Below, piece after piece: positions 26 through 29,915 of a stretch of DNA of 57,665 nucleotides. The DNA is from Muribaculaceae bacterium (lineage in GTDB: Bacteria > Bacteroidota > Bacteroidia > Bacteroidales > G3-4614). The position numbers and the translations under genes are program-made. The stretch is from NCBI GenBank assembly GCA_017546805.1, contig JAFYRT010000019.1:1-57665 (forward strand), written 5' to 3'. Positions within the stretch are counted from its first letter, which is position 1. Each line of letters starts with the position of its first letter. Under the pieces are notes generated by a model. That model saw nothing but the letters and a program-made list of their open reading frames with translations, had not been told where the DNA came from and searched no databases.

Positions 26-2654
26 ATTTAACCACTTTTAGGCTCTCCTCGCCTACTTTCACAAGCAATACTCCGGTTGCAGTGGTTTTTATTGTAGTTA
101 CTGAGTCTTCGCTGATTGCGTTAGTTATTACTGTTCCGTTTGCAGAGTAAAGAGTCACTGTCTCTCCTGCTGTTGTTCCGTAGATTTTTATCTCGTTTTC
201 CAAAACAACTGCTTTAAGTGTTTGTTCTGCCACCTCTGTCGAAATAATTCCTGTCACCCCGCTGAAGTTTGCTACAATCTCGGTATTTGATGAGATAGTT
301 GCTGTGTATGGATTCTCAATTGAAACCTCTACTCCGTTTATAGTCCAGTTTTCGAATTGATATCCCTCTTCTGCTGTTGCAGTTACTGTTACTTGGTCGT
401 TTGCAAAGGCATAAATTGAGTTACTTGATGCACTACCCATTGTTGCATCAGCCGATGATGCAGTTACTGTAAACATTTGTGGCAACGAGAATTGGTTATC
501 CAAATATGATATGCGGTTGCCTACATATTGTCTTAGGAATGTAACCTCTGCCTCATATGAACCACGTGCTGCAAGCTCGTTATATACAATCTTGTTCAAA
601 ATATCCCATTTTTGGAAGTTGTTTTGTTGAGACATTTGCAAGTAGTTTTCTGTTGAGTTGATGTAGTTTATCATAAACTCTTTAACTCCTGCTTTACGAA
701 CCTCTGCCCAACGTGCTTTTACGTTTGCTTGAAAATCTGCATCTTGCCACCAACGTGCAATCCAAGTTTTGGGGTCGTGTGCATATGTGCGCATTAATTT
801 GTTTGTTGCATCACCTAAACGGCTGTCGTTATTGAATGCTATATCGAAATCCCATAGCGGACCAAATTTAAATACATCGTTGCGCTCTTTATACATATAT
901 GTACTCCACCAAGCATCAGAGTTTCCGAACAACTCACATGCGATGTACCAATCCACCATTGATGCCTCGTCGATGTATTTTCTCCAGCCTGTCTCTGCAT
1001 TTGTGTAGCTTGTGCTGAATAGAGCATTTTCCATTTGTTGAGTATAGTTAGAGATATAGTAACTTTGGTCTGAGTTTATCTCGTCATCTTTGGGGTATTT
1101 GATTGTAACCTTCATTCCCTTGGTTGTTTGGAACCATGAGATTTCGCTATCAGCAAATCCGTCAACCTCTATCAAGTATCCGCCTGTTATTTCAGGGTCA
1201 TTGATTGTTGTGGTTTCGTCTTGCTCGGTTACGGGTACACGTTTTGATTTCACCTCTACTTGGTCGGTTAGCATATAGTTACCCAAGTTCTCGCCATTCA
1301 ATACAACGTCAACGAATGTTACCGATGGAGTAAATCCGAACTCAAACATATTTCGTGCTGTCTCAAATGCAAGGGCGTTACGCATAAGTGTTTTATCGGC
1401 ATAGTTTGCCAACAACACCCAGTTTTTCTCTTTTGCTTCGTTGCCCAAGAATTTGATTTTTTTGTCGAATTTCAAGCGGTATGGTTTTTTTGCCATTCCC
1501 CATGTTGAGTTTCCGCGTCCTTTTATCTCAGCCAATACATCTGTGATATTGTCATCAGCATTTTCTGCTCCACGAACCGAAACGTATGCAGTAACATAAT
1601 CTTCTTTGCTTACAACAGGAACGCCACCCTCTGTATTGATGTAGATTGTGGGAACATTTGTTATTTGAGGATATTTATCTGTGAAGTTTGCAACCACATT
1701 CATATCTTTTGTAACTGCTGCTGTGTATGGGTTATCGAACGATACAATTTTTCCGTCAACAGTCCAATTTACAAATTTGTTGTCGCCTGTTGCTGATGCA
1801 GTAAACACTACCTCTGTATCCTCTACCAACTCTCCTGTTTGTGATGCTGTTGCGCTACCCATATCTGCATCGTTTACAGATACACTTACATTGAATGATC
1901 CCAACTCACGGAAGTTTGCAACATATGCTTTGTCTCCCTCTGTTATGTCGGTATATGAGGCATTTGTTGACACCTCTTCTCCTGCAACTGTCCAATTTAT
2001 GAATTTATATCCTTCAAAAGGAACTGCAGTAATAGCTACAGGATCAGTTTGGTCTGTAACCTCGGTTACACCCTCGCTTCCAATGTAAGCTGTTCCCATA
2101 TCTGCGTTGTTTACAGATACTGAAATTTTTCTTTCTGCAACTTTTGACGACTTATAAACCTCAAACTCATATAGCACAAGCCATGAACCTCCTGGCTCCA
2201 CAATCAACATTCTTACATATTTTGCGGCATAACCTTTTGCATTTATGGTAACAATATACAACCCTGTATAAGTATCATACTTTGCAACGTTATTTGGCAC
2301 TACCTCAGACCCTTCAACATCTGCCCAAGTTAAATTATCAGTTGATACTTGCACCTTAAGTTTGGCAGGGCTGTAATAATAGTGATTGTTTCCGAAGAAG
2401 AATTTCACATTATCCAATTGAACCTCTTCCGGTAATGTTACTGTTACTGTAGTTCCTACTTCTTGGCTATTCAACGACTCAAATCTTGTAGAATATACTC
2501 CATCGATAAGTTTATCAGCAGTATTATTTGAGTAAGGTTGAACACTTACCTCTGCCGAAACAGGAGATACTTTTTCTACGTCTTGTGCCAATAGTGTTTG
2601 GCAAGTGAACAATGCCATTACTGACATTAAAACAACTTGTAATAGTTTTTTCAT
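24..2654 (-). CDS. secreted CotH kinase family protein with sorting domain (paralogue 1)
   Basis: The 876-residue protein starts with a signal peptide (about 1-23, ending LLAQ). A discoidin/F5-8 type C-like domain (about 28-170) follows, then two divergent InlB-type repeats (about 176-326, each with an xxNWTV core and ending VANF). The CotH kinase-like domain spans about 330-715 and carries KGRGNSTWG, NYADKTLMRNALA and FGPLWDFDIAF, the last holding the metal/ATP-binding aspartates of the family. A further InlB-like repeat (about 725-797) precedes a C-terminal Por/type IX-like sorting domain (about 803-876, ending LLVKVGEESLKVVK). Known CotH proteins are secretory-pathway protein kinases, first described for spore coat protein; a surface or extracellular kinase or adhesin role here is inference. 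The gene lies downstream of, and is closely related to, the next minus-strand gene. Confidence 0.88.
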   Translation of the reverse strand: MKKLLQVVLMSVMALFTCQTLLAQDVEKVSPVSAEVSVQPYSNNTADKLIDGVYSTRFESLNSQEVGTTVTVTLPEEVQLDNVKFFFGNNHYYYSPAKLKVQVSTDNLTWADVEGSEVVPNNVAKYDTYTGLYIVTINAKGYAAKYVRMLIVEPGGSWLVLYEFEVYKSSKVAERKISVSVNNADMGTAYIGSEGVTEVTDQTDPVAITAVPFEGYKFINWTVAGEEVSTNASYTDITEGDKAYVANFRELGSFNVSVSVNDADMGSATASQTGELVEDTEVVFTASATGDNKFVNWTVDGKIVSFDNPYTAAVTKDMNVVANFTDKYPQITNVPTIYINTEGGVPVVSKEDYVTAYVSVRGAENADDNITDVLAEIKGRGNSTWGMAKKPYRLKFDKKIKFLGNEAKEKNWVLLANYADKTLMRNALAFETARNMFEFGFTPSVTFVDVVLNGENLGNYMLTDQVEVKSKRVPVTEQDETTTINDPEITGGYLIEVDGFADSEISWFQTTKGMKVTIKYPKDDEINSDQSYYISNYTQQMENALFSTSYTNAETGWRKYIDEASMVDWYIACELFGNSDAWWSTYMYKERNDVFKFGPLWDFDIAFNNDSRLGDATNKLMRTYAHDPKTWIARWWQDADFQANVKARWAEVRKAGVKEFMINYINSTENYLQMSQQNNFQKWDILNKIVYNELAARGSYEAEVTFLRQYVGNRISYLDNQFSLPQMFTVTASSADATMGSASSNSIYAFANDQVTVTATAEEGYQFENWTINGVEVSIENPYTATISSNTEIVANFSGVTGIISTEVAEQTLKAVVLENEIKIYGTTAGETVTLYSANGTVITNAISEDSVTTIKTTATGVLLVKVGEESLKVVK

Positions 2655-2698
2655 AATAGTTATTTTGTTTGATTTTTTTGAACATAATTATCAGTGTA

Positions 2699-3038: not shown

Positions 3039-6000
3039 TTACTTCACCACTTTAAATACCTGTTCTCCAATTTTTATTATCAGAACTCCTTTGACAGAAG
3101 TGCTTATGGTTGTTATCTCTCCTTCACTAACACCATTTGATATGACCATTCCGTTGGCTGAATATACAGCTATTGGTTCGCCTTGCGTTGTTCCGTAAAG
3201 TTTTATCTCATCACCTAACACAGCAACTTTTATTTGTTCTGCGTTATTTGCTGAATCTATACCCGACACAACCTCAAATACCGCAACAAAATTGGTATGC
3301 TCGGTAATGGTCGGCTGGTAGATGGACTCTGTTGATACAACCTCTCCGTTTACTGTCCAATTTACAAATTCATAACCCTCTTTTGGTGTAGCCATAAGGG
3401 TTACAGATGAGCCTTTTTCAACCGAATTTGAAGATACATCTACAATACCCTTAACTGTATTCTCCGAAGTGGCTGTTACATATAAATCGTACAAATCATC
3501 TATATATCCCTCTGTAAAGACAAATGGTATTGAAATGTATTTATTTGAACCCTCTGATATAATCTGCACATCGTACAAACATGCCACCAAATCTTTATTT
3601 GCGCCTCCACTCAACAGTTTATTATCATCGTCAGGAGCGGACTCAAAATCCCAATAACCAATAAGAGTTTCATCTGTTACAGTATCGATATGTTCCATAG
3701 CTGCCTTAACCTCGTCTTCAGAAAGGACTTTTTTGTACAAACGAACCTCATCAATTGTTCCGTCTATTGGCGCACGCCCATATGCAAGACCTCCAACCAT
3801 TATAACATTAGATGATTTCCAGCTATACAATGATTGTGGAGCTGTGGATGAACCTATTTTCTTTCCGTTAACAAACAATTCAAATGTTCTATTGCTGGTA
3901 TATCCACACGCCATTGCCACATGATACCATTTTTGAGGTTCAAACTTAACATAAGTTGGGGTTGCAACAGAGGCTCCGTATGATGCCATAAGTCGATAAT
4001 CGAAAAGCCAATTGCCCTCTTCAGCAACATCTCCTTGATCATTTGTATCCCCTTCGTTTGCAATCACACTCCACAAATAGCCCCAATCACTTGCTGGGTA
4101 ACCATCTTGTGGAGAGCGAATGTTTATAAATTGAGTACCCAGGTAATCATGATTGAATTCATTGAAATATATCCAAAATGCAAGAGTAAAGGGTGTTTGA
4201 TTGTTAAATCCAAGCTGATCGGCAGGAATACCAAACGCTTTTCCTTCCAACACTGCTCCTTGAACTGTAGCTCCGAATTCAACAAAGTTAGCCACGAATT
4301 CAGAATTTGCAGTAACAGGTACAGTACAACTGCTCTTGGTTGAAACTGTTTTTCCGTTAAGTGTCCAATTCAAGAATCTATATCCCGGTTTGGCTGTTGC
4401 TGTAAGGGTTACGCTACCACCCTCTTCTACCTCAGATGCCGAAATCTCAGCCATACCCTTTTCTTCATCTGACGGTATTGCCGATACAGAGAAGATTAGT
4501 TGCGACAAACCAAATTCATCATCAAGGAAGCCGACACGACTTGTTACATAATTTTTCAAGAATTCAACCTCTGCCGCATACGAACCTCGTGTTGCAAGTT
4601 CGCGATACACTTTTGTATTTAGGATGTTCCATACCTGGAAGTTATTTTGTTGCGAAGTTTGCAGATAATCGGCTGTATTATCAATGTAGTTTGTCATAAA
4701 TGCCGCTACTCCTGCTTTACGCAACTCCTCCCAACGTGCTTTTACTTTTGCCTGGAAGCCTGCATCTTGCCACCAACGTGCAATCCAAGTTTTGGGATCG
4801 TGTGCATATGTGCGCATTAGTTTGTTTGTTGCATCACCCAAACGATCATCGTTATTGAATGCTATATCGAAATCCCATAGCGGACCAAATTTGAATACAT
4901 CGTCACGCTCTTTGTACATATATGTACCCCACCAAGCGTCAGAGTTTCCGAACAACTCACATGCGATGTACCAATCCACCATTGATGCCTCGTCGATGTA
5001 TTTTCTCCAGCCTGTCTCTGCATCTGTATAGTTTGCACCGAACAGTGCATTCTCCATTTGTTGTGTGTAGTTTTTGATATAGTAACTTTGGTCAGAGTTT
5101 ATTTCATCGTCTTTGGGATACTTGATTGTTACCTTCATTCCTTTGGTTGTTTGGAACCATGAGATTTCGCTATCGGCAAATCCGTCAACCTCAATCAAAT
5201 ATCCTCCTGTTATTTCGGGGTCAGATGAGGTTGTGGTTTCGTCTTGCTCGGTTACCGGTACGCGTTTTGGTTTCACCTCAACTTGGTCGGTTAACATATA
5301 GCTTCCTATATTCTCGCCATTAAGCACTACATCAACGAATGTTACCGATGGAGTGAAACCAAAGTCAAATATATTGCGTGCGGTCTCAAATGCAAGAGCA
5401 TTACGCATAAGAGTTTTATCGGCGTAGTTTGCCAACAACACCCAGTTTTTCTCTTTTGCCTCGTTACCCAAGAATTTGATTTTCTCATCGAATTTCAAAC
5501 GGTATGGCTTTTTAGCCATTCCCCATGTTGAATTTCCACGTCCTTTTATCTCGGTTAACACCTCGGTGATGTTGTCCTCGTCGTTTTTTGCTCCACGAAC
5601 GGTTACATAAGCCGTTACATAATCCTCTTTGCTTGTTACTTCTACTCCACTCTCTGTATTGATATATATTGTTGGTACATTTGTAAGCTTTGAATAAGCA
5701 TCGGTAAAGTTTGCCACTATATCAACATCCTCTGTTATGGCCACCTCATATGGATTGGCTGTTGAGACAACCTCTCCGTTTATTGTCCAATTCACAAATT
5801 TGCATCCTCCGCCAGGATTTGCAGTGAACAAAATCTCTTCTCCCTCATACACATTACCGGTTTTTGAGCCAATTGCATATCCCTGTTTGATATTTGCCGA
5901 TGATACTTTCACATCGAATATTTCAGAAATATCGAAGTTTGCCACATATGATTTATTACCTTCTGTTACATCGTAAAAGTGAGGATTGGTTGACACCACC

Positions 6001-7814
6001 TCTCCGTTTAGTGTCCAATTCAAAAACTTATATGATGGATTAGCCGGAGTTGCCACCAACACAAGAGGTTCTATGTTGTTCGAAACAGTTGTCATACCTT
6101 GGGTGTAAATATAGGCTGTTCCCATTGTTGAACTGTTTACCGATACAGAAATTGCTCTTGGTGCAATATCTACAGGATAAGCATATACCTCAAACTCTTT
6201 CATCAGCAAAGACTGATATGTTCCAGAGGTAATATACATTCTCAAATATTTTGCCACTACGGGCGAGGAGATATATTTCGATATCAAATATCCTGAAGCT
6301 TTCTGATGATATTTTGCTTCACTTCCACTAAAACCTGTTCCCTCAATATCAAACCAATGCTTGTTATCTACCGAAGCTTGTATTTTTGCCGTTGACGGAC
6401 GCTGATATGTATCAAAAAAGAGATTGACTCTTCCGATTACAGATTCTTGTGCTAAAGCTACCGTAACTGTTGAACCGACAGATACATAATTCTGTGTCTG
6501 GAAATAGGTGTTATATTTACCATCTATTATATTACTTACCGCAGAAGTTCCACCCTGCGCTAAAGATAACTCTGCCGCTATTGTTTGTATTTTTTTTAAA
6601 GCTACTTGGAAGTTTGCGACATACTCAATTTCTGAATTTACAATAAAAGTATACTCAGGGCTAATACTAACAACGTTTCCGTCCACTGTCCAATTTACAA
6701 ACTCATACCCCTCATTCGGGTATGCTATAAGTGTTATCTCCTCGCCTTCGTACAATTGTCGGTTTATCTCTATGACACTACCCATTGTGGGATTGCTTGA
6801 GATTATACTAATATCATATTTAGGCAGCTCTTCAAAATTTGCAACATAGTGATGAGTTCCGGGAATTGTACACAAATAGTCAAGCTCGGTACTTACCACC
6901 ACACCATTCAAGGTCCAATTCAAAAACCTACAATTGCTATATGATTGCGCCCTAATAAGAACAGGCTCTGTTTGATTTGTTACTTCGTTGATTTCTATAT
7001 AACCTATAAAGGCATTACCCAATGTTGGATCATTCTCCGATACACTGATATTGTACGGTAATAATTCTGAGAAATTGGCAACATATGCTCTGTCTTCTCC
7101 AAACAAATCAATATATGTGGCCTCGGTACTTACCACCTCGCCATTCACTGTCCAACTTTCAAACATATAGCCTTCGGCAGGAATAGCCACAAGATTAACA
7201 GCCCCCGATTTATTCTCAACCTTTGTTACCCCTTCCTCTCCGATATATGCCGTACCCATCTGCGAATTGTTTACCGATACGGATACAGTTCTTGGTGTAA
7301 TATCCGCCTGTTGTCCATACACCTCAAATTCATAAAGATATAAATAAGAGTTTCCTTTCTCTACAATTGCCATTCTTACATATTTAGCAGCATATGCACT
7401 TACGTTTATTGCAACACAATAAGAGTTTTTGTCAGATTCATACTCCACTGCATTGGCAACCGTAACTTCAGAACCTGCCACATCGGTCCATACCACATTG
7501 TCCGGTGATACCTGTAATTTTATTTTTTTTGGACAATAATAGGTCGTATTTCCAAAATATAACTTTACTGTTTGCAATTGGCACATATCATCCAAGGTTA
7601 ATGTAGCTGTTGTTCCTTCCGACTGATAATCATACGACTCAAAACGGGTTGAATAAGATCCATCTATAATCTTATCTGCAGTATTTGTTGACCATGCTTT
7701 AACACTTACCTCGACTGCTCGAATATCCAATTTTGCTGCCAACATTTGTTGGGTGGCAAACAATGCCATCACAGACATTAAAACAAATAGTAATACTCTT
7801 TTCATAATCAGCAT
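3039..7814 (-). CDS. large secreted CotH kinase family protein with LamG domain (paralogue 2)
   Basis: The protein has 1591 residues from the first ATG; the second ATG at 7805 (MKRVLLFVLMSVMALF) gives a better signal peptide start. Visible modules are, in order: a discoidin-like domain (about 30-175), three InlB-like repeats (about 180-400), a second discoidin-like domain (about 405-545), two more repeats (about 555-705), the CotH kinase-like domain (about 705-1090, with KGRGNSTWG and FGPLWDFDIAF), one repeat, a LamG/concanavalin-like domain (about 1165-1400, with WYHVAMACG and IDEVRLYKKVLS), a seventh repeat and a C-terminal Por-like sorting domain ending KVVK. The CotH portion is nearly identical to that of the 24-2654 gene, so the two arose by tandem duplication with module gain or loss. 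The substrate is unknown; secretion and surface attachment are inferred from the signal and sorting domains. Confidence 0.88.
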   Translation of the reverse strand: MLIMKRVLLFVLMSVMALFATQQMLAAKLDIRAVEVSVKAWSTNTADKIIDGSYSTRFESYDYQSEGTTATLTLDDMCQLQTVKLYFGNTTYYCPKKIKLQVSPDNVVWTDVAGSEVTVANAVEYESDKNSYCVAINVSAYAAKYVRMAIVEKGNSYLYLYEFEVYGQQADITPRTVSVSVNNSQMGTAYIGEEGVTKVENKSGAVNLVAIPAEGYMFESWTVNGEVVSTEATYIDLFGEDRAYVANFSELLPYNISVSENDPTLGNAFIGYIEINEVTNQTEPVLIRAQSYSNCRFLNWTLNGVVVSTELDYLCTIPGTHHYVANFEELPKYDISIISSNPTMGSVIEINRQLYEGEEITLIAYPNEGYEFVNWTVDGNVVSISPEYTFIVNSEIEYVANFQVALKKIQTIAAELSLAQGGTSAVSNIIDGKYNTYFQTQNYVSVGSTVTVALAQESVIGRVNLFFDTYQRPSTAKIQASVDNKHWFDIEGTGFSGSEAKYHQKASGYLISKYISSPVVAKYLRMYITSGTYQSLLMKEFEVYAYPVDIAPRAISVSVNSSTMGTAYIYTQGMTTVSNNIEPLVLVATPANPSYKFLNWTLNGEVVSTNPHFYDVTEGNKSYVANFDISEIFDVKVSSANIKQGYAIGSKTGNVYEGEEILFTANPGGGCKFVNWTINGEVVSTANPYEVAITEDVDIVANFTDAYSKLTNVPTIYINTESGVEVTSKEDYVTAYVTVRGAKNDEDNITEVLTEIKGRGNSTWGMAKKPYRLKFDEKIKFLGNEAKEKNWVLLANYADKTLMRNALAFETARNIFDFGFTPSVTFVDVVLNGENIGSYMLTDQVEVKPKRVPVTEQDETTTSSDPEITGGYLIEVDGFADSEISWFQTTKGMKVTIKYPKDDEINSDQSYYIKNYTQQMENALFGANYTDAETGWRKYIDEASMVDWYIACELFGNSDAWWGTYMYKERDDVFKFGPLWDFDIAFNNDDRLGDATNKLMRTYAHDPKTWIARWWQDAGFQAKVKARWEELRKAGVAAFMTNYIDNTADYLQTSQQNNFQVWNILNTKVYRELATRGSYAAEVEFLKNYVTSRVGFLDDEFGLSQLIFSVSAIPSDEEKGMAEISASEVEEGGSVTLTATAKPGYRFLNWTLNGKTVSTKSSCTVPVTANSEFVANFVEFGATVQGAVLEGKAFGIPADQLGFNNQTPFTLAFWIYFNEFNHDYLGTQFINIRSPQDGYPASDWGYLWSVIANEGDTNDQGDVAEEGNWLFDYRLMASYGASVATPTYVKFEPQKWYHVAMACGYTSNRTFELFVNGKKIGSSTAPQSLYSWKSSNVIMVGGLAYGRAPIDGTIDEVRLYKKVLSEDEVKAAMEHIDTVTDETLIGYWDFESAPDDDNKLLSGGANKDLVACLYDVQIISEGSNKYISIPFVFTEGYIDDLYDLYVTATSENTVKGIVDVSSNSVEKGSSVTLMATPKEGYEFVNWTVNGEVVSTESIYQPTITEHTNFVAVFEVVSGIDSANNAEQIKVAVLGDEIKLYGTTQGEPIAVYSANGMVISNGVSEGEITTISTSVKGVLIIKIGEQVFKVVK

Positions 7815-7834
7815 ATTTAGGGGTTATCTCGCTA

Positions 7835-7866
7835 TAAAAGTATGAAAAAAGTTTTAAAAGAGCAAT
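7835..7866 (-). promoter_or_regulatory. promoter of CotH paralogue 2
   Basis: On the minus strand ATTG (7863-7866) is 20 nt upstream of TACTTTTA (7835-7842), a near match to TTTG-N19/21-TAnnTTTG. It lies about 20 nt upstream of the ATG at 7814 and about 30 nt upstream of that at 7805. Confidence 0.5.
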
Positions 7867-7887
7867 AAACACATACAAAAATATATA

Positions 7888-7896
7888 GGGGGGGGG
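7888..7896. repeat. homopolymeric G9 tract
   Basis: Nine consecutive G residues sit 22 bp upstream of the -33 box of CotH paralogue 2, in otherwise AT-rich DNA. Tracts of this length are prone to slipped-strand length change. Confidence 0.75.
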
Positions 7897-7929
7897 TAAA
7901 TATTTGATTATCAAGAGATTTTTTTTGCA

Positions 7930-8087
7930 AATTAGGAATTAGGAATGAGAAATTAGGGATTAATTTCTAATTGGTACGAAGTGACGTACTAATTCCTAAT
8001 TGCGACAAAGTCGCGAACTAATTGTTGCGAAGCAACGTACTAATTCCTAATTGTGGCTTTAGCCACGAACTCACTCCTAATTTAAAT
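7930..8087. repeat. AATTAGG-linked small-hairpin repeat block
   Basis: The block holds four or five linker-plus-hairpin units: a degenerate GTAC unit (about 7973-7990), GCGAC-AAA-GTCGC (8003-8015), GTTGC-GAA-GCAAC (8023-8035) and GTGGC-TTTA-GCCAC (8053-8066). They are separated by copies of taattcctaatt. It fills the space between the CotH and portal genes. Confidence 0.75.
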
Positions 8088-25628: not shown

Positions 25629-26330
25629 ATGCCTGTAACATCATTCCAAGACAGAGAATTCGGGTTGATTAAAGTACGATACGACGCTCGTGCTTGCCGA
25701 CTGATATTCAGAGTAAAAGATGGGGCTTTGATTATAACTGCACCTGTGGCAACTTCCCTATCTCTAATAGAGAAAAGCCTGAACGAAAAACGCACTGCAA
25801 TATCTCAACTCTTTACAAAACACACTCCAAAAATATTACGTCCCGGAGACGCTCTGCAAACTCGTTGTTTTAAAATAGAGCTATACTCCCACCCTCTCCC
25901 CCAAATATTGTTCTCCCTAAAAAACGGAGTGCTTAATATTTTTATACCACAAAACATTGATGTAGAAAATATTGCTTTTCAAAAACTACTAAAGCAGAAC
26001 ATCATAAAAGTTGCAAAGAGGGTATCTGCTACATATCTCTTTACCCGACTTAAAGAATTGGCTCAGTCAAAGGGGTTGAAGTTCAACGATTTTGCTGTTT
26101 CAACAGCACGAACAAGAATGGGCGTTTGCACCACAAAAAAGAAAATAACTCTCTCTGCTTATCTAATATTCTACCCACAACATTTGGTAGACTATGTAAT
26201 CCTACATGAATTGGCACACTTAACAGAGATGAATCACGGACCACGTTTTCATGCTCTCTGCAACTCATATTGCGGAGGAAAAGAGCGTGAATTGGAACAA
26301 GAATTTAAGAGATTCAAGTTGCCATTATAA
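25629..26330 (+). CDS. YgjP-like metal-dependent hydrolase (M48/WLM family)
   Basis: The 233-residue protein has a C-terminal zinc-peptidase signature: HELAH (His193, Glu194, His197) followed by LTEMNHGPRFHALC, which provides the third ligand. YPQHLVDYVILHELAH is the usual preceding context in YgjP/DUF45 proteins. The N-terminal half is beta-rich (VRYDARACRLIFRVKDGALIITAPV). No signal peptide is seen, so it should be cytosolic. The natural substrate of this family is not established. It follows nadK closely and likely shares its transcript. Confidence 0.85.
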   Translation: MPVTSFQDREFGLIKVRYDARACRLIFRVKDGALIITAPVATSLSLIEKSLNEKRTAISQLFTKHTPKILRPGDALQTRCFKIELYSHPLPQILFSLKNGVLNIFIPQNIDVENIAFQKLLKQNIIKVAKRVSATYLFTRLKELAQSKGLKFNDFAVSTARTRMGVCTTKKKITLSAYLIFYPQHLVDYVILHELAHLTEMNHGPRFHALCNSYCGGKERELEQEFKRFKLPL

Positions 26331-26439
26331 AAGCATAATTACTATCAATCTTTTGGTAATAAGCAGTGGCACACTTCGGTTCCTGCTCATTATTTTTAGC
26401 ACTCCGTTGTGTAAAAAAGGTTAAGACAGCAAAAATATT

Positions 26440-26470
26440 TTTGAAATTTTAAATATTAATTTTACCTTTA
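26440..26470 (+). promoter_or_regulatory. promoter of propeller protein 1
   Basis: TTTG (26440-26443) is followed after 19 nt by TACCTTTA (26463-26470). This is close to the Bacteroidota consensus and lies 41 nt before the ATG at 26511. Confidence 0.6.
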
Positions 26471-26510
26471 AAGCAACAATTAATTATTAACCCTAACAAG
26501 AGGAGATATA

Positions 26511-27866
26511 ATGCAAAATCAGAGGGAAAACAATAAATTTAGTATCAGGTTTTTATTGGTAATAACATTTATTTTACCATTCAATATATGCTTTGGTAAT
26601 TACTACGACATTAAAAACGAGCTACATACCAATAGATTAGCTCTTAAAGATAATGCTATATGGATAACAGCAAGCAAGGGCTTGCTAAAATATGATAAAG
26701 GATTAGGTAGGGTTACTTCAGCATCAGAAGAGTTGGGAGTAAATTCAGATATCGAATACTTGTCTATAGCTACAGCTCCCGATAACTCATTATGGTTTGC
26801 ATCAGAGGAGGAAGGAATAAAAAAGTATGATGAAGTATTATCTTCATATCGAGCATTTAGTCTTATAGGAATTGATACATATCATGGATTATTATATTCT
26901 TTTGCATTTGATTCTAGTGAAAGAGTATTTGCGGGAGAAATGGATTATGTATTTTATGTAGATAAATTGAACCCTATAGATGAGTATCCCAGTTGTAAAC
27001 AGATGTATCAATTAGCTACTACGAAAGATGGAGGAAATGGAGCAAACCGTCCAACAATGGATATGGCATTTGATAGTAATGGAGCTATTTGGATTGTATC
27101 AGATAATAGAGAGGCTTCTAACAATTATAAAGACGGGAAGGTTAATTTAGCTACGTTGGTAAAAAAAGATAAAGCCAGTTTAGATAATACATTAAACACC
27201 ATACATACATATCCGTATGTATATTTTAAAGCAACTCCTGTGTTAGAATATGATGATATAAATGCAACCTCTATTGTGGTTGATAACAATGATAATATTT
27301 GGTTTACATCTAATTATGGAATACATTACTATAACCAATCGACCGAAGAAGCTTCCTTAATGAACAACACAACAAATTCATCAATACCAAACGAGCATTT
27401 CTATGCCAACGAAAAAGATAGCGATGGAAATATTTGGTTCTCTTCATCAACTACGTTAATGAAGTACGATGGTGAGAATTTCACGACCTATACTTGCCCC
27501 GATTATAACGAGGCTCGCTCAATTCTTTGTGATGGAGATATTGTTTGGGTTTTATTAAAGAACGATACTTTATTGAAGTTCCAGAATAACGAATTTGAGA
27601 CAATAGATTTGACTCTTGCTGTAACAGGCATTAAGGAGAGTATTGCAGAGGTTAGCAATACCAAAGCATTTATCTCAAACGAAATGTTAAACATCGAAAA
27701 TGCAGAAGGCATAAATTCTGTAGTAATTTATGATGCAATGGGTAAGATTATAACTTCTGCTAATGCCAATGGAGCAACTTCTACTCAAATTGCATTGTCT
27801 GCAACCATTAAAGGAGTGTTGATTGTTAAGGTAAACAATGAGGTTGTAAAGGTAGTGCGTGATTAA
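26511..27866 (+). CDS. secreted beta-propeller protein with sorting domain (paralogue 1)
   Basis: The 451-residue protein has a signal peptide (about 1-33, hydrophobic FLLVITFILPFNICFG). A series of propeller-type blades follows, similar to two-component-regulator propellers: NAIWITASKGLLKYD, NSLWFASEEEGIKKYD, GAIWIVSDN, DNIWFTSNYGIHYYN and GNIWFSSSTTLMKYDG. The last 75 or so residues form a Por/type IX-like sorting domain (GINSVVIYDAMGKIIT, ending LIVKVNNEVVKVVRD). No histidine-kinase part is present, so this is a free secreted propeller. The 3' end is nearly identical in DNA to that of the next gene, although the propellers differ. Ligand unknown. Confidence 0.8.
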   Translation: MQNQRENNKFSIRFLLVITFILPFNICFGNYYDIKNELHTNRLALKDNAIWITASKGLLKYDKGLGRVTSASEELGVNSDIEYLSIATAPDNSLWFASEEEGIKKYDEVLSSYRAFSLIGIDTYHGLLYSFAFDSSERVFAGEMDYVFYVDKLNPIDEYPSCKQMYQLATTKDGGNGANRPTMDMAFDSNGAIWIVSDNREASNNYKDGKVNLATLVKKDKASLDNTLNTIHTYPYVYFKATPVLEYDDINATSIVVDNNDNIWFTSNYGIHYYNQSTEEASLMNNTTNSSIPNEHFYANEKDSDGNIWFSSSTTLMKYDGENFTTYTCPDYNEARSILCDGDIVWVLLKNDTLLKFQNNEFETIDLTLAVTGIKESIAEVSNTKAFISNEMLNIENAEGINSVVIYDAMGKIITSANANGATSTQIALSATIKGVLIVKVNNEVVKVVRD

Positions 27867-27904
27867 GCAAAATATTCGCATATAATTTTTAATTACGAGA
27901 TAAC

Positions 27905-28042
27905 TATGTTCAAACTGTAGTTCCTGAAATTAGAGTACAAGCAGGAGAATATGAACATACAGTTAATGTTCCTAATGGAATTTATGTTGTAGTATATTAC
28001 TTAAACGGAAATATTAACTCTAAAAAAATTCAAATAAAATGA
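27905..28042 (+). pseudogene. fossil of a C-terminal sorting domain
   Basis: An open frame with no start codon encodes about 40 residues, including VQAGEYEHTVNVPNGIYVVV and ending NSKKIQIK. This is the end of a Por/type IX-like sorting domain different from those of its neighbours. It begins where similarity between the regions after the two propeller genes stops. Its TGA (28040-28042) overlaps the ATG of the next gene, an arrangement expected for a former upstream gene. It is best read as the displaced original C-terminus of propeller protein 1. Confidence 0.65.
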
Positions 28043-29328
28043 AACTTGTAAAGTTCCTCACATTGTATTCTCTTTTGAATATTTTATGTTCGCCAGTATT
28101 CGCTAATTTAGATGTAAATGCCCCCAATATCAATTTAAAATTTCAAGCGGATCCAGAAGATTACATAAATTACAAATTATGGACTTACGAATTCTATTCC
28201 AATCGTATATCTGACGATGGTGCTAATCTTTGGATAACTCCAAGTGTTGGTATTTTAAAATACAACAAAATTACAGGAGAGTGTTACAATGTTGCATCTG
28301 AAATATATGCTAATAATGAAGCTACATATACAGCAATTGAGACAACATCAGATGGAATAGTATGTTATTCAGAAATGCATGGGTTCGCTCAAGTATGGGA
28401 CGGAGCTAAAATAGATACATATGGTTATACAAATGGTTTTGTATACTCTTTTGCAATAAGGCCAAATGGAGATGTTTGGGCTTCAATGGGAGCAAGTTAT
28501 ATACCTCCTGCTGATTCAGTATATCATTTCTGGGGATATCAGACATATAATGCAATCTCATCACAAATACAATCTCCTATTACCGATATGGCTTTTGATA
28601 GCAAAGGTCGATTATGGATTGCAATGTTTGGTAAATATGATTATTTAGGATATCATGAATATATTAATGAAGCAGATGTTACTAAATATGTTGGTTCAAA
28701 TCCTTATTCAGGACCATACAAAAAAATTACCTCAATAGCTATTGACAAAAATGATAATATTTGGTATGCAAGCGATGAGGGCATAAACTGTTACTATCAA
28801 GAAACAGGAAAGGAGGTTTGTATGACTAAGGAGCAATATCCTGCAATGCTTGAAAACAGGTATTTCGGCAATGACATTGATGATAATGGAAATATTTGGT
28901 TTACCTCTGAGAATAACTTGCTCAAATGGGATGGCACAGAATTTACGACATACACTTGTCCTGGCTACGAAGAGGCTCGTTCTATGCTTTGCGATGGGAA
29001 TATTGTTTGGGTTCTGTTAAAGAACGATACTTTATTGAAGTTCCAGAATAACGAATTTGAGACAATAGATTTGACTCCTGCTGTAACAGGCATTAAGGAG
29101 AGTATTGCAGAGGTTAGCAATACCAAAGCATTTATCTCGAACGAAATATTGAACATCGAAAATGCAGAAGGCATAAATTCTGTAGTAGTTTATGATGCAA
29201 TGGGCAAGGTTATAACATCTGCTAATGCAAATGGTGCAACATCTGCTCAAATTACACTTCCTTCAAACACGAAAGGGGCATTGATTGTAAAAGTAAACAA
29301 TGAGGTTGTAAAGGTAGTGCGTGATTAA
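28039..29328 (+). CDS. secreted beta-propeller protein with sorting domain (paralogue 2)
   Basis: The 429-residue protein starts with a signal peptide (MKLVKFLTLYSLLNILCSPVFA, about 22). It carries the same blade type as paralogue 1: NLWITPSVGILKYN, GRLWIAMFGKYDYLG, DNIWYASDEGINCYY and GNIWFTSENNLLKWDG. The C-terminal region from CDGNIVWVLLKNDTLLKF to the end is almost the same as in paralogue 1 and contains the sorting domain (GINSVVVYDAMGKVI, ending KVNNEVVKVVRD). The propeller parts have diverged strongly, which contrasts with the shared 3' end. A cell-surface or secreted binding role is inferred. Confidence 0.8.
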   Translation: MKLVKFLTLYSLLNILCSPVFANLDVNAPNINLKFQADPEDYINYKLWTYEFYSNRISDDGANLWITPSVGILKYNKITGECYNVASEIYANNEATYTAIETTSDGIVCYSEMHGFAQVWDGAKIDTYGYTNGFVYSFAIRPNGDVWASMGASYIPPADSVYHFWGYQTYNAISSQIQSPITDMAFDSKGRLWIAMFGKYDYLGYHEYINEADVTKYVGSNPYSGPYKKITSIAIDKNDNIWYASDEGINCYYQETGKEVCMTKEQYPAMLENRYFGNDIDDNGNIWFTSENNLLKWDGTEFTTYTCPGYEEARSMLCDGNIVWVLLKNDTLLKFQNNEFETIDLTPAVTGIKESIAEVSNTKAFISNEILNIENAEGINSVVVYDAMGKVITSANANGATSAQITLPSNTKGALIVKVNNEVVKVVRD

Positions 29329-29348
29329 GCAAAATATTTGCATATAAT

Positions 29349-29379
29349 TTTGTAATTACGAGATAATTATATATTTTTG
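29349..29379 (+). promoter_or_regulatory. candidate promoter of the rimP-nusA-infB operon
   Basis: TTTG (29349-29352) is followed after 19 nt by TATTTTTG (29372-29379), a full consensus match. It lies between propeller gene 2 and rimP. Transcripts from it would start just before a terminator-like hairpin. Confidence 0.6.
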
Positions 29380-29450: not shown

Positions 29451-29915
29451 ATGATTAACGCAAAAGAGATTGAAAATAAAGTAGTTGAGTTACTTGGCGA
29501 CGGTTCTGCATTTTTAGTTGGAGTAACCGTTTCGCCCGATAATACCATAGTTGTAACCATCGATGATGATGACCGTGTTGATATTGAGTTCTGCGAAAAA
29601 TTGCACCGCGATTTGGAGGCTTGCTTCGACAGAGAGGTTGAAGATTACTCTCTTGAGGTTGGTTCTGCAGGATTGACATCTCCATTGGTATTACCCCGTC
29701 AGTACAAAAAGAACATTGGCGGAGAGGTTGAAGTTTTGACAAAAGCAGGTCAAAAATTTTATGCAGTACTCTCTTCTGCCGACGATGATTCGTTCACGGT
29801 AGAGGTTACAAAAAAGGTAAAACCCGAAGGCTCTAAACGTAAAATAGAGGTTGTTGAAGAGGAGAAATATCTGTACACAGATGTTAAATACGTTAAGAAC
29901 GTAATCACATTTTAA
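29451..29915 (+). CDS. rimP: ribosome maturation factor RimP
   Basis: The 154-residue cytosolic protein is required for 30S subunit maturation. It shows the RimP order: an alpha/beta N-terminal domain with VVTIDDDDRVDIEFCEKLHRDLEACF, then YSLEVGSAGLTSPLVLPRQYKKNIG, corresponding to the family's LEVSSPGLxRPL motif with S-P changed to S-A. A C-terminal SH3-like barrel follows. Length is normal. It is the first gene of the conserved rimP-nusA-infB cluster. Confidence 0.94.
   Translation: MINAKEIENKVVELLGDGSAFLVGVTVSPDNTIVVTIDDDDRVDIEFCEKLHRDLEACFDREVEDYSLEVGSAGLTSPLVLPRQYKKNIGGEVEVLTKAGQKFYAVLSSADDDSFTVEVTKKVKPEGSKRKIEVVEEEKYLYTDVKYVKNVITF

Follow-up and report, generated by a model that had tools for sequence, protein, structure and literature searches.

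The window, by which we mean the whole stretch of 57,665 nucleotides that was analysed, carries on its plus strand a run of features in the order hydrolase, gene 1, fossil, gene 2 and rimP. The upstream anchor (25629..26330) encodes a metal-dependent hydrolase with a HELAHL motif, which we take to be DUF45-like, and is also found at the orthologous rimP locus of G002, G004, G005 and G006 (genomes, contigs and loci are referred to here by G, C and L numbers). The downstream anchor used for finding orthologous loci is rimP itself (29451..29915). Gene 1 (26511..27866, 451 aa) encodes a Reg_prop propeller followed by a T9SS sorting domain, the cassette of which occupies 76 codons (27636..27863), and is preceded by an upstream or promoter region at 26431..26518. 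Gene 2 (28039..29328, 429 aa) has the same architecture, with its sorting-domain cassette at 29098..29325. Two more large proteins, whose sorting domains at the C-terminus are weakly similar, are encoded on the minus strand of the window (27-2687 and 3042-7823), the second of which includes a LamG region.

The sorting domains were scored against curated cut-offs of 23 bits for TIGR04183, 27 bits for PF18962 and 40 for the type C model NF033708. With TIGR04183, gene 1 scores 23.7, above the cut-off, and gene 2 scores 22.2 in the protein scan and 25.3 in the genome scan; both genes remain below the cut-offs of PF18962 (23.0 and 21.4) and NF033708 (34.0 and 27.2). In the predicted structure of gene 2, residues 363-428 form seven strands with pLDDT of about 70-78. 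The SprA model (TIGR04189) was matched far above its cut-off in 8 of 8 genomes of the genus and in 0 of 14 control genomes.

The propeller bodies of the two genes share about 36-43% protein identity, and their 3' ends are nearly identical to a point past the stop codons, as the initial annotation had pointed out. The 3' block of gene 1 (27544..27903), comprising the propeller end, the cassette and a post-stop piece, corresponds to a source block at 29006..29366. Alignment of 27544-27904 with 29006-29367 revealed 30 differences (92% identity), and the identity is patchy: 95.7% over 27544-27750, 80% over 27751-27840 and 95.3% over 27841-27904. The likeness extends 37 bases beyond the stop of gene 1, up to GAGATAA, and these bases (27867..27903) duplicate the rimP upstream region in truncated form. 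The post-stop element is native at 29329-29366 after gene 2 and is conserved before rimP in congeners, where the sequences preceding rimP in G002-G006 align with it. A pattern search returned one copy in each of five genomes, always just before rimP; the copy behind gene 1, which has a 1-nt deletion, went unmatched. The possibility that this element of 37-40 bp is a dispersed recombination site was rejected, as the search matched solely before rimP. Since the post-stop part is rimP upstream region, the proposal that gene 1 received a copy of gene 2's 3' end found support; the 3' end of gene 1 is a young copy from the gene 2 (rimP-proximal) side, and the shared ends are younger than the propellers rather than equally old. 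A patch of 150-200 nt in the gene 2 cassette has 90-97% identity with the cassettes that LamG and propeller genes carry on C38. In the middle patch, gene 2 shares 97% identity over 30 nt with C38_39723/40965, and gene 1 shares 87% with C38_13997. The resemblance of the two middle patches to different cassettes elsewhere in the genome suggests that this part of the cassette was altered in the window by later conversion.

Behind the copied block lies the fossil (27904..28042), the last 45 codons and stop of a gene designated X, which combines a DUF7689 domain with a T9SS type A sorting domain. The junction (27900..27903) is the microhomology ATAA, common to GAGATAATTAT from the rimP upstream region and AGTAATAACTATGT from the tail of X. 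After gene 1's copied block the fossil translates as NYVQTVVPEIRVQAGEYEHTVNVPNGIYVVVYYLNGNINSKKIQIK, a single open frame of 46 residues (NYVQTVV...KKIQIK) devoid of in-frame ATG, GTG or TTG. Its TGA (28040-28042) overlaps the ATG of gene 2 (28039-28041), and the same stop/start overlap, AAAATGAAAC, is present in G002 and G003. The fossil matches positions 31/32-72 of TIGR04183, the end of the model, with E values of 0.004-0.045, below the curated cut-off; the open sorting-domain remnant overlapping the start of gene 2, described in the initial annotation, is thus real. At the DNA level it is up to 87% identical over 139 nt to the ends of sorting-domain genes in congeners (E 1e-44), and none of 200 codon-shuffled versions gave a match, which together exclude a chance likeness. 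Readthrough or recoding of gene 1 into the fossil was rejected because the frames differ and the post-stop spacer lies between them. An independent small gene was likewise rejected, given the lack of an in-frame ATG, GTG or TTG and an internal stop in the comparable remnant of G005.

Across the eight genomes of the genus that were compared, X is a separate gene of about 815-859 aa, and the next gene downstream always encodes a propeller or LamG protein (L117, L118, L124, L059 and L120, in addition to truncated copies). It is intact in L117 (G003), in L118 and L124 (G002) and in L059 of the window's own genome, and is interrupted by stops in G005. Truncated X occupies the same position in L059, L074, L118, L119, L121, L128, L129 and L130; several of these copies are internal deletions running from the signal peptide to the tail, and one such deletion is common to two species (L129/L130). 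The fossil shares 77-87% DNA identity with X tails of the propeller-associated kind, in the same position relative to the next gene, the closest being L130 (87%) and L129 (86%), in both of which the stop likewise overlaps, as ATGA, the start of a gene 2-type body. Intact X with this overlap to a gene 2-type propeller was not found, truncated X alone having it in G002 and G003. The DUF7689 domain is absent from the window, where the last 45 codons alone remain, a remnant and not a gene. Judged from these alignments, the fossil is the end of the separate gene X and not the own tail of gene 1. A sequence search of X against the PDB gave weak matches only (E 0.006 or worse). Some further remnants were also noted. 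In L119 (3999-4295), X has lost an internal segment without a shift of frame, and what remains is an open frame of 99 residues in which the signal peptide directly adjoins the sorting domain. In L059, two further X-tail fossils follow cassette genes (7838-7966, and after the stop at 2987, minus strand), and an N stretch lies beside one of them at about 1755-2890.

The orthologous rimP loci indicate where X belongs. The order in G005, read across contigs C38 and C45 through an exact 138-nt overlap, is hydrolase, X remnant, LamG gene and rimP, with the X remnant occupying gene 1's place; in G003 it is X tail, propeller and rimP, the contig ending upstream. Homology (75.6%, E 7e-10) also links the sequence preceding gene 1 with the sequence preceding the X remnant of G005. 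By this upstream homology and the position of the G005 remnant, gene 1 stands where X stood, and the fossil is the end of X. According to the initial annotation, gene 1 itself formerly ended in the fossil sorting domain, which was displaced by an inserted copy of gene 2's 3' end. Copy and fossil are indeed both real and adjacent, and the copying and the cassette exchange in that account stand. Nevertheless, in five congeneric loci this tail terminates X (DUF7689), and it never terminates a propeller; gene 1's position in G005 is taken by an X remnant; and the orthologue of gene 1's body (G005:C30:74786-76096, about 60% aa identity), which was expected to run into the fossil, has a normal cassette without an X tail. 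The joining of the fossil to gene 1 is consequently the part of the account that fell, and displacement of gene 1's own tag is now very unlikely. In the rimP loci of G002 and G004 (L077 9371-9484, L076 about 7750-7850), all that is left of the gene preceding rimP is a cassette end of roughly 26 codons.

Comparison across the genus, using draft assemblies with one genome per species, revealed the cassette on 45 genes in six congeneric genomes, namely 20 propellers, 15 LamG proteins and 10 members of a third family. Mantel analysis of these 45 genes gave r = 0.03 (p = 0.16) for body against cassette and r = 0.34 (0 of 5000 permutations) for genome against cassette. A body partner at least 75% identical exists for 28 genes, and in only 2 of the 28 is the best cassette partner the same. 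The nearest neighbour of a cassette is in the same genome for 26 of the 45 genes, as compared with 6 of 45 for bodies; the shuffle mean for cassettes was 8.7 and the maximum 24 in 10000, label-shuffle tests being inflated by near-copies. Bodies 95-100% identical were found with differing tags. For example, G002_C8_49165 and G005_C23_34943 have bodies identical in protein (100%) and 99.1% identical in DNA, against 85.5% for rimP-nusA between these two genomes, with cassettes 60% identical in protein and unrelated flanks. Conversely, unrelated bodies carry tags 92-97% identical in DNA, as in G002_C3_63042 and G004_C51_93128 (97%). The cassette tree unites six G005 cassettes, taken from both propeller and LamG genes, in a single clade (SH-aLRT 100), whereas the corresponding bodies fall with those of other species. 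G002 and G003 are sister species whose cassettes intermix, and for this reason homogenisation is by species group and not strictly by genome.

A simpler explanation, that cassettes merely evolve faster than bodies with no exchange taking place, would accommodate the average identities of orthologous bodies (89%) and of their cassettes (67%). It is contradicted by the control orthologue pair G003_C104/G002_C8_190567, in which the body is 99% and the cassette 98-99% identical, so that the cassette is not intrinsically fast, by the near-identical cassettes of unrelated bodies, and by the clustering of cassettes by genome and the crossovers seen in aligned loci (see below). Fast evolution alone is therefore scarcely credible. 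Exchange of sorting domains as cassettes between genes, which the initial annotation had suggested from the window, is strongly supported by the 45 genes of the six genomes, with r = 0.03, and by crossovers at two orthologous loci.

At the first of these loci, G004 and G002 match through the upstream region and the propeller body (92%), and G004 then resumes 4.77 kb further on at the cassette of a LamG gene. The 4.77-kb block, present in G002 only and lying between two cassettes, contains, besides X, the cassette of the propeller gene, a gene of the third family and the body of the LamG gene. At the second locus, a block of 1.13 kb (cassette, flank and third-family body), again only in G002, is flanked by two cassettes, and the switch falls inside the cassette. 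These differences could be either deletions in G004 or insertions in G002; in both cases, to judge by the alignments, crossovers in the cassette delete or add whole genes. In L128 of G005 (1000-1420), the cassette end of a LamG gene is spliced out of frame into X and an X tail is left before the propeller gene, a second, independent event like that of the window. X tails appear to recombine too, because L074 and L130 of G003 have the X deletion junction in common and stay nearly identical for about 105 bases before they diverge. Short-read misassembly, by which the junction of gene 1 with the X tail and the other apparent swaps would be chimeras at repeats, deserves consideration since these are MAG assemblies and several X copies lie at contig ends. 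Yet the 4-nt microhomology at the junction is shorter than any assembly word, the 30 differing sites between the 3' blocks of genes 1 and 2 are not those of a collapsed repeat, and like swaps lie within contigs of up to 292 kb in several genomes. We consider such an artefact quite improbable.

Taken together, these observations suggest the following course of events. The genus, which belongs to the Bacteroidales, would possess a set of secreted proteins (propellers, LamG proteins and a third family of roughly 320-340 aa) with a common T9SS cassette of 80 residues, and homologous recombination between cassettes would swap tags, delete or add the genes between two cassettes, and homogenise the cassettes within a genome. 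The ancestral locus in the window would have been hydrolase, X, a body with cassette, and rimP. The body of gene 1 would have come into the place of X, behind an X-like promoter, and its 3' end would have been taken from the cassette of gene 2, extending into the rimP upstream region for 37 bases. The copied end would then have been joined through the ATAA microhomology into the X tail, leaving the last 45 codons of X as a fossil whose stop retains the overlap with the start of gene 2. The join may have been made by a template switch, by homology-facilitated illegitimate recombination, or by tandem duplication of a 1463-bp unit of X tail and gene 2 followed by deletion between cassettes. Homologous recombination in the cassette combined with a short-homology join is probably the simplest account of both the window and L128, duplication plus deletion being equally possible. 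For the locus as a whole, we regard cassette exchange together with an X-tail remnant as highly probable.

Tandem duplication on its own would make genes 1 and 2 a duplicated pair with diverged 5' parts and the X tail trapped between them. A duplication at the ATAA microhomology would account for the direct-repeat unit of 1463 bp, which extends from the X tail to the piece of rimP upstream region. The body tree places the two genes apart, however, gene 1 with G005_C30_75872 (SH-aLRT 100) and gene 2 with propeller-LamG fusions (SH-aLRT 99), the latter including relatives in G000:C68, G002, G003 and G005 at 61-69% identity; they are thus not recent duplicates, and a later replacement of a body would still be required. 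Duplication as the sole event is accordingly most improbable, and cassette exchange remains the preferred explanation.

Near-identical tags have been documented in the KLIKK proteases of Tannerella forsythia, the C-terminal sorting domains of which are nearly identical and whose authors left the origin and impact to further research (PMC4404884). Like the present genes, these are unrelated T9SS cargo proteins with a near-identical tag in one genome (PMC4404884). The bodies described here are propellers (Reg_prop in genes 1 and 2) or LamG proteins and not proteases, the ends read KVVRD or KIQIK instead of KLIKK, and a comparison of orthologous loci between species lets the exchange itself be seen. 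No account of sorting-domain exchange as such was found in the open-access literature. Domain rearrangement and allelic exchange in the gingipain and adhesin genes of Porphyromonas gingivalis were attributed to gene conversion (PMC5266723), a similar case of recombination between repeated domains of T9SS surface proteins (PMC5266723). There, adhesin and catalytic domains vary between strains, whereas here it is the sorting domain that is exchanged or anchors the exchange, and whole bodies change. Homology-facilitated illegitimate recombination (PMC3240628) resembles the junctions of the window and L128 in having homology at one end, the cassette, and microhomology at the other, the X tail. Template switching or duplication plus deletion fit the window equally well. 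Integron gene cassettes are modular gene bodies beside a shared recombination segment, with attC sites and an integrase. The modular bodies next to a common recombination segment are alike in both systems, but the shared segment here is coding, the breakpoints lie inside coding homology, and neither attC nor integrase is needed.

The sorting domains of P. gingivalis and T. forsythia are reported not to substitute for each other, a T. forsythia tag being faulty in P. gingivalis (PMC11285876), and selection for a locally compatible tag is plausible on that ground. We infer the order and enzymology of the events in the window, and likewise that T9SS compatibility would select for resident cassettes. 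Tentatively, at somewhat less than an even chance, the coding sequence of the sorting domain might serve as a recombination dock for gene capture, in which bodies with their own promoter, even those of other species, enter through homology with resident tags and gain a locally matched tag, conversion then keeping the tags alike. Such a dock may be an integrase-free analogue of gene cassettes, with X tails and promoters as the upstream shoulder. A tag acting as a recombining module would explain how new surface proteins become secretable after horizontal transfer as well as the likeness of tags within a genome, and the question is testable by comparing bodies with tags in any T9SS genus.

Many cassettes also contain a palindrome, CCCCTCTC-5 nt-GAGAGGGG, inserted in frame in the middle of the sorting domain (LTPNPSPVERG). 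It was observed in cassettes of L118, L124 (about 5050-5095), L134, L117, L122, L156 and L158, and G005 cassettes have GTPLFRREAGGED at its site. The invaded version of the cassette has spread onto unrelated bodies, and copies of the palindrome are found elsewhere in the genomes too, including G000:C41.
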